Shown here piece after piece: positions 13,072 to 15,255 of a stretch of DNA of 61,280 nt. The notes beneath the pieces were generated by a model. It searched no databases. It saw only the letters and a program-made list of their open reading frames with translations, and was not told the origin of the DNA. The DNA is from Candidatus Endomicrobium macrotermitis (GTDB lineage: Bacteria > Elusimicrobiota > Endomicrobiia > Endomicrobiales > Endomicrobiaceae). The position numbers and the translations under genes were made by a program. The DNA is taken from positions 1 through 61,280 of the forward strand of contig JAISVT010000051.1 in NCBI GenBank assembly GCA_031271405.1, in the 5' to 3' direction. Every line of letters starts with the position of its first letter. The stretch's first letter is position 1.

Positions 13072-13107
13072 AAAAAAGGGCAGAGTTTAAAAACTCTGCC
13101 CTTTTTT
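13072..13107 (-). terminator. Rho-independent terminator after the exported protein gene
   Basis: Near-perfect hairpin AAAAAAGGGCAGAGTTT / AAACTCTGCCCTTTTTT with a two-base loop. On the minus strand it ends in a U run 15 bases past the stop of the gene at 13122. It also insulates glgP. Confidence 0.93.
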
Positions 13108-13121
13108 GAAGGAAATAAAAC

Positions 13122-13721
13122 TTATTCGTAAATTATATCGTCAAGATATATTACGAATCCGTTGGAATTATCGTCTTTGGAAGCCGCCCAGCAGAAACCG
13201 CCGATGACGTGCGACAAATCTCTGCCTTTAAGATCGATCGTGTATTTCTGCCATTCTTTTTTAAGTTCGACGGGTCCGACGGCCATTGAGTCTGAATCCG
13301 GGAATTCTCCGGTGATTCCGCCCATTTTAAATTCGGCTATTTTTTCGCCGCCTACCGCTCCGCGCGCCCAGAAAGTAAGTTTCGTTGCGCCGGATAAATC
13401 ATATCCGCCTTTCTTTTCTCCCCAATTGTTTGCAGGCTGCTGCCAGTAAATTCCCGACCATCCCGCGCCCTGGGTCATCTTTGCGCTGTAAGTAATTTTG
13501 ATGCAATAACTTCCGCTTCTGGGGTTTTCGGTGCTGGCGAGATTAATCTTAATATCGCCGTAATCGCCCATCCATCCGGAAGGGGCAAAATGATTCTCTT
13601 TCGAGTTATGTTCGACATAAACTGCGAAAGGTTTGAACGCCGGGGCTTTTTGAGCCATTACTGCCGCTGAAATCGTTCCTACAAAGGCTGCCGCTAAAAC
13701 TAACGACATGATTTTTTTCAT
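13122..13721 (-). CDS. Exported protein with carbohydrate-binding-like fold
   Basis: A 199-residue protein with a clear Sec signal peptide (MKKIMSLVLAAAFVGTISAAVMAQ, cleavage probably after the Ala-Gln region near residue 24). The mature part looks like a jelly-roll galactose-binding-like domain of the CBM type: Trp-rich (SGWMGDYGD, GAGWSGIYWQQP), a LTFWARG strand, KKEWQKYTIDL, and a closing IYLDDIIYE strand. Such domains bind glycans or decorate secreted enzymes; no catalytic domain is attached. Its upstream region carries the same promoter motif as the neighbouring ECF sigma gene, so it is probably a sigma target. A terminator follows. Confidence 0.7.
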   Translation of the reverse strand: MKKIMSLVLAAAFVGTISAAVMAQKAPAFKPFAVYVEHNSKENHFAPSGWMGDYGDIKINLASTENPRSGSYCIKITYSAKMTQGAGWSGIYWQQPANNWGEKKGGYDLSGATKLTFWARGAVGGEKIAEFKMGGITGEFPDSDSMAVGPVELKKEWQKYTIDLKGRDLSHVIGGFCWAASKDDNSNGFVIYLDDIIYE

Positions 13722-13766
13722 GGTACTCTCCTTTTTAAATTGACGCCTTTTGGCATCATTAATATA

Positions 13767-13795
13767 TAAGACAGCTTAAAACCCCAAAATGTTAC
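13767..13795 (-). promoter_or_regulatory. Candidate ECF sigma promoter (exported protein)
   Basis: On the minus strand GTAACATTTT (complement of 13786-13795) is followed, 18 bases after GTAAC, by GTCTTA (complement of 13767-13772). It matches the site ahead of the ECF sigma gene at 15228-15255 in ten consecutive -35 bases and in GTCTwA of the -10. Confidence 0.6.
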
Positions 13796-13822
13796 AATCG
13801 TTTACCGGCCGGTAACGGAAAA

Positions 13823-14197
13823 CTATTCGGACTGTTCTCTGATTTGCCTTATTTCATGCTCTTTCAAGAGACTAATATATATAGTTTTTTGCTGTCCGTC
13901 AAGTATTCCTTTGATATTTTCTCTCATCATATGAAGCTGCATCTTTATTTTCGGATTAACCTCTTTCATAATATCGTCTATGGCGATTTTATTGTCGGCA
14001 AGAATATTGAATAGCAGGGCTTTTTGAACGTCGCTTAAACTTAAAGTCTGCGTAAGAGGTTCGAGCCTTTCGAATCTGTACTGAAAATTGTAGATTTCTT
14101 TGCTTTTTATCGCGCTTTTGACCATATAACCGCCGGCAAAACCCGCTGCAAATATCAGAAAGCACAATATTACGGCTTTAGTTTTAATCGAAAACAT
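13823..14197 (-). CDS. Spy/CpxP-like periplasmic protein
   Basis: A 124-residue protein with an N-terminal membrane anchor or uncleaved signal (residues 7-26) followed by an all-helical region. The LSLSDVQKALLFNIL segment resembles the LTxxQ motif of Spy/CpxP-type periplasmic chaperones and metal-resistance sensors; Met-rich QLHMMREN fits the class. It is the third gene of the sigma/anti-sigma cassette, four bases after the anti-sigma stop. This arrangement suggests a periplasmic sensor or modulator of the envelope stress response, as inferred from related cassettes. Identity is by pattern only. Confidence 0.65.
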   Translation of the reverse strand: MFSIKTKAVILCFLIFAAGFAGGYMVKSAIKSKEIYNFQYRFERLEPLTQTLSLSDVQKALLFNILADNKIAIDDIMKEVNPKIKMQLHMMRENIKGILDGQQKTIYISLLKEHEIRQIREQSE

Positions 14198-14201
14198 TTG
14201 T

Positions 14202-14633
14202 TTATCCCATTAAGTCCGAAATTATTTTATCGCAGGCCGACGCGTCTTTCAAAACGTATTTGTTTAAAGCGTCTATATTGTCGTAACTGTCTTTGGCGGA
14301 AACGTCAGGGGTAAGGAAATTGAAAGTCGCTATGACTCCGAGCAGGAATACCGCAGTAAGCAGAGAAACTTTTATCGTCTGAAAAAAAACGGGAATGAAG
14401 TTTGTCTCCTGAAATTTGTCTCCGATTTTTTGCATTATTACGCTTTCGAAATTGTCTCCCGCTTTTTGCGCAGGCAGGTTCGCAAGCGAAGACTTTAAAT
14501 TTTTAAGCAGAAAATATTCGTTTAAACATTCCTTGCACGATTTCAAATGATCCTCAAGCAAAATCCTTTCGTTTTGAGGAAGTTTGTCGTCTACATAAAG
14601 ACTCAACTTTAAAACAAAATCTTTACATTTCAT
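14202..14633 (-). CDS. Membrane-bound zinc-finger anti-sigma factor
   Basis: A 143-residue protein with the N-terminal zinc-binding anti-sigma signature HLKSCKEC (His29, Cys33, Cys36; an earlier Cys3 may complete the site). A membrane segment follows near residues 90-110, then a short periplasmic tail. Such ZAS proteins hold an ECF sigma factor inactive at the membrane until a signal releases it. It follows the sigma gene by 15 bases and has a GAGGG ribosome binding site overlapping that spacer, so the pair should be made together. The periplasmic Spy-like protein downstream is the likely sensory partner. Confidence 0.88.
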   Translation of the reverse strand: MKCKDFVLKLSLYVDDKLPQNERILLEDHLKSCKECLNEYFLLKNLKSSLANLPAQKAGDNFESVIMQKIGDKFQETNFIPVFFQTIKVSLLTAVFLLGVIATFNFLTPDVSAKDSYDNIDALNKYVLKDASACDKIISDLMG

Positions 14634-14648
14634 TTTTGTGCCCTCGTT

Positions 14649-15209
14649 TTAAATTTTAATAATGCTTTTTAATCTGCTTCTGGCCCTGAACAGCCAGACT
14701 TTTACTTTCGCGTCTGAAATTTCCATTATTTGCGCTATTTCTTCATACGAAATGTCTTCTATATCTCTCAGCGTCACAATCATTCTGTATTTTTCGGGCA
14801 GTTCCAGCAAAGCTTTTCTTATAATGCTTTGGGTTTCGGCCGAAAGGAAATTTTGTTCCACGTCGGATTTCGGGTCTGCCAACACTTCTTTGAGGGAGAG
14901 ATTGTCTTTGCCCGCCAGTTCCGTTTCTATGGAAACCGTATTGCTCTTTCTTTTGTTAAGGACATTATAACATTCGTTAACCGTAATTCTGTACAGCCAT
15001 GTCGAAAAAGCCGATTTTTCTTCGAAAGAATTCAAGTTAGAGTAAACTTTCAAAAAAACGTTTTGGGCTACGTCGTCGCTTTCGGAATGACTCGAAGTAA
15101 AAGAAAAAGCAATGTTAAAAACTTTGTCTTTATACCTTGTTATAATGGATTCAAAAGCGTTTAAATGGCCGTCTTTTGCAAGTTTTACAAGCTGAATGTC
15201 GCTTAACAT
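14649..15209 (-). CDS. ECF RNA polymerase sigma factor
   Basis: A 186-residue group 4 sigma factor. Region 2 (residues about 20-90, including the DDVAQNVFLKVY and SAFSTWLYRI segments) recognises and melts the -10. Region 4 (about 130-180, LPEKYRMIVTLRDIEDISYEEIA and a helix-turn-helix ending in KVWLFRARSRLK) binds the -35. The ATG at 15209 is preferred over a TTG two codons earlier. The next gene is a zinc-finger anti-sigma factor, so activity should be controlled by release at the membrane. A motif likely to be its own promoter lies upstream and recurs ahead of the exported protein gene at 13721. Confidence 0.93.
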   Translation of the reverse strand: MLSDIQLVKLAKDGHLNAFESIITRYKDKVFNIAFSFTSSHSESDDVAQNVFLKVYSNLNSFEEKSAFSTWLYRITVNECYNVLNKRKSNTVSIETELAGKDNLSLKEVLADPKSDVEQNFLSAETQSIIRKALLELPEKYRMIVTLRDIEDISYEEIAQIMEISDAKVKVWLFRARSRLKSIIKI

Positions 15210-15227
15210 TAACAAACTCTCAATAAA

Positions 15228-15255
15228 TTAGACTGTTTTTTCTCTAAAATGTTAC
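15228..15255 (-). promoter_or_regulatory. Candidate autoregulated ECF sigma promoter
   Basis: On the minus strand GTAACATTTT (complement of 15246-15255) and GTCTAA (complement of 15228-15233), with 17 bases between GTAAC and GTCTAA. The spacing and the GTAAC/GTC elements are typical of ECF promoters. The site is placed to start transcription about 12 bases ahead of the sigma ATG. Confidence 0.62.

Follow-up and report, generated by a model that had tools for sequence, protein, structure and literature searches.

A small predicted ECF sigma factor regulon linking a sigma/anti-sigma/Spy-like operon to an exported jelly-roll protein in Candidatus Endomicrobium macrotermitis

Which genes are controlled by an ECF sigma factor that is encoded beside an exported protein resembling a carbohydrate-binding module (CBM), and does the response concern glycans or the state of the envelope? 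This question was raised by a locus in a 61,280-nucleotide stretch of the genome of the termite-gut bacterium Candidatus Endomicrobium macrotermitis (referred to here as the window). Four genes follow one another on its minus strand, encoding an ECF sigma factor, a zf-HC2 anti-sigma factor, a small helical protein anchored in the membrane and an exported protein of 199 aa (Table 1). The first three are separated by gaps of 15 and 4 bases, indicating that they form an operon, and the 101 bases before the jelly-roll gene hold a second predicted promoter.

Table 1. Features predicted at the sigma/jelly-roll locus (window coordinates)
Feature	Position	Strand	Basis or detail
ECF promoter of sigma operon	15228-15255	minus	GTAACATTTTAGAGAAAAAACAGTCTAA; -35 GTAAC 15251-15255, spacer 17, -10 GTCTAA 15228-15233
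ECF sigma factor, sigma-70 regions 2 and 4	14649-15209	minus	Pfam Sigma70_r2 6.8e-17, Sigma70_r4_2 1.7e-18; TIGR02937 4.8e-33
Zinc-finger anti-sigma factor (zf-HC2, HxxxCxxC)	14202-14633	minus	PF13490 5.5e-10; one probable TM helix, short outer tail
Membrane-anchored helical Spy/CpxP/CnrX-like protein, third operon gene	13823-14197	minus	Orthologues adjoin sigma in 10 genomes
ECF promoter of jelly-roll gene	13767-13795	minus	GTAACATTTTGGGGTTTTAAGCTGTCTTA; GTAAC, spacer 18, GTCTTA
5' leader stem-loop	13741-13758	minus	Starts at about predicted +1
Ribosome-binding site GGAGAG	13726-13731	minus	From sequence
Exported 199-aa jelly-roll (CBM-fold) protein, N-terminal signal sequence	13122-13721	minus	AlphaFold2 and Foldseek
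Intrinsic terminator directly 3' of jelly-roll gene	13072-13107	minus	16-bp stem, U-run; -23.1 kcal/mol, z -8.3

The sigma factor possesses only regions 2 and 4, as do ECF sigma factors in general, and its start was placed from orthologues at the ATG at 15209 rather than the TTG at 15215. Only one other sigma factor with PF08281 is encoded in the genome. Judged by sequence only, it shares an operon with its anti-sigma factor and has its own promoter. The canonical autoregulated ECF sigma factor is defined by AAC in the -35 box (PMC8103513), and GTAAC was present at every sigma orthologue read. CGT in the -10 box, an older requirement that later classifications have dropped (PMC8103513), was not found in the window, where the -10 elements GTCTAA and GTCTTA are nearer to the RpoE type. 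The anti-sigma factor (143 aa) has zf-HC2 as its only Pfam domain, and alignment showed the HxxxCxxC zinc motif in nine of 10 orthologues, the exception being that of genome G017. The outer tail carries a conserved YVL motif, kept even in G017 without the zinc-finger part, which may be a contact for the Spy-like protein or for a protease.

The third gene had been labelled Spy-like in a preliminary description of the window. This label is the less secure one: the window protein itself had no Pfam match, and its structure prediction from a six-sequence alignment was poor (pLDDT 47), but distant orthologues (that of genome G079 above the cut-off) and remote sigma targets in relatives match LTXXQ/Metal_resist. 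Its alignment contained one invariant His and no conserved His/Cys cluster.

A pattern search for GTAACATTTT-N12/13-GTCTWA identified exactly two sites in the 1,887,305-base assembly (1.89 Mb, 99.7 % complete), one ahead of the sigma gene and the other ahead of the jelly-roll gene, both on the minus strand, where a simple base-composition estimate gives about 0.014 sites per genome. Reversed-pattern controls gave none in the whole assembly, and the two sites in the window compared with none in 100 shuffles. Genome scans with the looser patterns GTAACWTTT-N10-16-GTCTWA and GTAACNTTT-N10-16-GTCTNA returned the same two sites and added none. With fixed spacers, no one-mismatch site was found in the whole genome, and two-mismatch sites (5 and 9) were not in excess of the control (19 and 14); 11 of the 14 two-mismatch sites fell within ORFs. 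A larger regulon in this genome was therefore rejected, as the relaxed and two-mismatch patterns yielded no further targets and most two-mismatch sites lay inside ORFs. The preliminary description had placed both elements at these minus-strand positions with 17–18 bases between GTAAC and GTCTWA, had seen no third copy, and had held that a motif common at random positions would count against it. Both elements were located there, with measured spacings of 17 (sigma) and 18 (jelly-roll), and the absence of a third copy proved true of the whole genome, the sigma and jelly-roll genes being the only ones preceded by the motif. A near-palindrome, GTTACCGGCCGGTAAAC, lies at window positions 13800-13817, after the stop codon of the Spy-like gene and before the promoter of the jelly-roll gene, and is not conserved in relatives.

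The four-gene order was kept in ten Endomicrobiaceae genomes (genera labelled g1, g13 and g2), including those of Endomicrobium proavitum Rsa215, E. labiotermitis, E. embiratermitis and E. neocapritermitis. Each of the 23 sigma orthologues read is preceded by GTAAC[A/T/C]TTT...[G/A]TCTAA, even where protein identity falls to 38 % and in other classes of the phylum. Upstream of the jelly-roll gene, GTAAC[A/T]TTTT...TCT[T/C]A was present in 10 of the 11 cluster copies, the exception being G017, in which only the -10 was clear and no -35 was recognisable. The spacer and leader sequences around both conserved promoters have diverged, and in genome G002, where the jelly-roll gene is duplicated in tandem, each copy has its own motif element. 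Sigma genes use TCTAA, mostly with a 17-base spacer, and jelly-roll genes usually TCTTA with 17–18 bases, perhaps reflecting a difference in promoter strength. Across the cluster genomes identity was highest for the jelly-roll protein (78–90 %), followed by the sigma factor (54–84 %), the Spy-like protein (54–70 %) and the anti-sigma factor (33–64 %). This footprinting upholds the earlier proposal of an autoregulated ECF sigma factor in an operon with its anti-sigma factor and a Spy-like gene, and of a second, separate target, the jelly-roll gene; the sigma factor very probably drives both transcription units. In genome G032, the jelly-roll promoter region (L037, about 305-390) contains repeated CAATGTAACATT units, which are multiplied -35-like elements.

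The motif was then counted over 90 genomes, giving 71 matches in the 33 genomes with a close sigma homologue compared with seven in the 57 without. At least one match was present in 29 of 33 sigma-positive and five of 57 sigma-negative genomes (Fisher p = 2.5e-14, indicative only, as the genomes are related and part of the excess is the sigma factor's own promoter). Three kinds of remote target recurred in relatives: a TolC-type outer-membrane efflux gene (Pfam OEP), followed in several genomes by an HlyD-type gene (Pfam HlyD), Spy/CpxP-like LTXXQ proteins, and small exported proteins rich in Lys or His. In genus g10 the sigma gene is remote, on another contig, yet the jelly-roll gene lies in a motif-headed unit (L229, L234, L238 and L243); in these four genomes the motif is followed by a small Lys-rich exported gene and then directly by the jelly-roll gene. 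The link between sigma factor and jelly roll thus occurs in two genomic arrangements, the cluster of ten genomes and the remote g10 units. Relatives in g7 and g11 possess the sigma factor and had no motif match at the jelly-roll gene. The sigma factor was not found at E 1e-30 in any of 19 genomes of genus g8, two of which are Endomicrobiellum, a genus of flagellate endosymbionts (PMC11257099). A TolC-HlyD operon was considered as a hidden target in the window genome and rejected, because the window-type genera sampled lack the orthologue (matches of only 21–26 %). Small exported His-rich proteins (HHKPHHKPHH...) are encoded downstream of this ECF motif in g10 and in g4 (L230, L233, L237, L240, L242, L245 and L252), and it is their Lys-rich sister that precedes the jelly-roll gene.

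Because the targets in relatives are Spy/CpxP-like chaperones and the TolC-HlyD efflux pair, the regulon is, by its predicted membership, of the envelope-stress type, and in the window genome it has retained a single target besides itself. The same gene set could also be read as a metal-stress system of the CnrYXH kind, in which metal would be sensed by the Spy/CnrX-like protein and the response would consist of metal-binding or efflux proteins. The joining of sigma factor, anti-sigma factor and CnrX-like protein in one operon would fit such a system, as would the Metal_resist matches and TolC-HlyD genes among the remote targets and the exported His-rich proteins that follow the motif in g10. 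It is nevertheless unlikely for the window: the Spy-like protein has no conserved His/Cys cluster, only the single invariant His noted above, the genome has no metal-efflux target, and no metal cluster is evident in the jelly-roll protein.

The jelly-roll gene forms a self-contained unit with an ECF promoter, a conserved 5' stem-loop, a ribosome site, a signal peptide, the jelly roll and a strong terminator, the last of which was missed by a consensus scan and found by folding. The leader stem-loop, of 5–7 bp, folded in all 11 cluster leaders (mean z -3.0), and its arms, paired by eye on the folds predicted, vary compensatorily between lineages (GATGCC/GGCGTC, AGATGC/GCATCT, CGGCGC/GCGCCG and GCGTAT/ATACGC). 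The hairpin is not general, as it was absent from the g10 units. The leader stem-loop probably protects or stabilizes the jelly-roll mRNA, as the 5' stem-loop of ompA and others like it do for their transcripts.

AlphaFold2 gave a confident jelly roll for the exported protein (pLDDT 90.5), and the best PDB fold matches found by Foldseek were CBM30, CBM8, CBM11 and CBM29, so that the predicted structure has the beta jelly-roll of solved CBMs and bears out the original CBM-like call. The protein was 52–89 % identical to 35 relatives, those at 52–65 % being in Omnitrophota and other Elusimicrobiota. Assignment to a known family was rejected: no Pfam family was found among the 36 members, NCBIfam matches were below the cut-off and a PDB sequence search gave no match of note. 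The chances that the protein binds a glycan are about even; its ligand, like the signal of the regulon, can be named only as a guess. In Omnitrophota loci (L176, L178, L181 and others) the domain is often doubled in one exported protein of approximately 385 aa.

Elsewhere in the genomes, jelly-roll paralogues are arrayed beside a 900-aa OmpA-domain protein, together with DUF5683 and Big-domain genes, and within the genus GH2/GH72-like TIM-barrel genes stand beside the array. On contig C46 of the window genome (L254:6857-13701), jelly-roll paralogues occur together with lipoproteins and a DUF5683-like protein next to a protein of 955 aa that is similar to the OmpA-domain proteins found in relatives, in an array conserved across Endomicrobiales that is possibly a surface-glycan locus. 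The jelly-roll gene of the sigma locus is derived from such an OmpA-linked array. In E. proavitum the array copy (L255:12089-12705) and the sigma-locus copy (L256:3318-3934) are 100 % identical over 617 bp, beginning 12 bases before the ATG, with different DNA upstream, and the two copies hence have different promoters. In the protein tree the two E. proavitum copies pair by genome, as do the two of G029; those of G023 do not. Gene conversion between array and sigma-locus copies is likely to have occurred in some lineages, the alternative being recent independent duplication. No close paralogue of the sigma-locus jelly roll was found in the arrays of the window genome and G003.

The preliminary description had taken the secreted jelly roll, an unusual output for a Spy-type envelope stress module, to suggest sensing linked to glycans or the surface. 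In a glycan-sensing loop the protein would bind an outside or own-surface glycan and feed back on the anti-sigma factor or the Spy-like protein, the sigma factor thereby reading glycan status. A fold closest to cellulose and beta-glucan modules, the TIM-barrel genes by the paralogue array and the animal-gut habitat speak for this. The jelly roll is, however, an output with its own promoter, the anti-sigma factor has no sugar-binding domain, the family regulon consists of Spy-like proteins and efflux, and the g7 and g11 relatives have the sigma factor without a motif match at the jelly-roll gene; a glycan-sensing loop is thus quite improbable, and general envelope stress is favoured over it. 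That the jelly-roll gene is instead read through from the sigma operon, with which it shares a strand at 101 bases from the Spy-like gene, its motif being a leftover, is scarcely credible given the near-constant retention of the motif, its duplication with the gene in G002, its presence before the remote g10 copy and the stem-loop at the predicted +1.

Under the envelope-stress reading, the membrane zinc-finger anti-sigma factor would hold the sigma factor in the resting cell, and the Spy/CnrX-like protein of the same operon may tune the response or sense the state of the envelope, a sensor role that we propose tentatively. A disturbance of the envelope would free the sigma factor, which would then read GTAAC[A/T]TTTT-N12/13-GTCTWA, amplify its own operon and switch on the separate monocistronic jelly-roll gene, whose 5' stem-loop probably stabilizes the mRNA. 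The exported product, one of the OmpA-linked set of surface proteins, would be abundant and most likely coats or cross-links a surface or periplasmic glycan, the ligand being a guess. The comparison behind this scheme covers the two sites and their conservation, gene order, the regulon of relatives, the leader stem-loop, the terminator and the fold. A broader possibility, put forward with rather less than even confidence, is that one near-invariant CBM-fold surface protein is supplied from two promoters, basally in the OmpA-linked array and under sigma control next to the ECF operon or within a distant sigma-headed unit, with gene conversion keeping the coding sequences alike and the promoters different. 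The window lineage would have lost the array copy, making supply wholly sigma-dependent, and the protein would give free-living gut lineages a glycan coat inducible by stress, the sigma factor having been lost from endosymbionts of flagellates.

The literature searched contained no account of an ECF regulon in Endomicrobia, and the main comparative-genomics paper on the group does not mention sigma factors (PMC11257099). Here such a regulon can be read off the sequence: it comes with a promoter code and a list of targets for the whole family, and in the genus of the cultured E. proavitum it has essentially one output. It also places a conserved, unnamed CBM-fold family common to Elusimicrobiota and Omnitrophota behind an inducible promoter, so that the function of the family can be tested, and the absence of the sigma factor from an endosymbiont genus gives a view of what the envelope response serves outside a host cell.

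In the RpoE/RseA regulon an AAC-type -35, a GTCTWA-like -10, a membrane anti-sigma factor and autoregulation are combined with envelope targets, and Spy and CpxP are outputs of CpxAR. The window locus and its relatives share these promoter elements, the membrane anti-sigma factor, predicted autoregulation and Spy-like and envelope genes as predicted targets; the window locus differs in its zinc-finger anti-sigma factor with a short outer tail, its Spy-like third gene, the very small size of the regulon and a CBM-fold protein as main output. The output resembles CBM30, CBM11 and CBM29 modules in fold (Foldseek E about 1e-6 to 1e-5, TM about 0.5–0.65), but is only 10–16 % identical to them, free-standing, exported and without a Pfam match. 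CnrYXH consists of an ECF sigma factor, an anti-sigma factor and a membrane sensor (PMC4803752), and the same three-gene logic of sigma factor, membrane anti-sigma factor and small, here putative, sensor protein recurs at the window locus; gene order differs, and the window genome has neither a metal-efflux output nor a visible conserved His/Cys metal site. In the SigI/RsgI systems of Clostridium thermocellum, sugar-binding domains on the anti-sigma factor act as sensors (PMC12203970, PMC4711584), a domain type that Pfam did not find on the window anti-sigma factor. Both systems tie an alternative sigma factor to carbohydrate-binding domains, but SigI belongs to a different sigma class and in the window the domain is a separate output.
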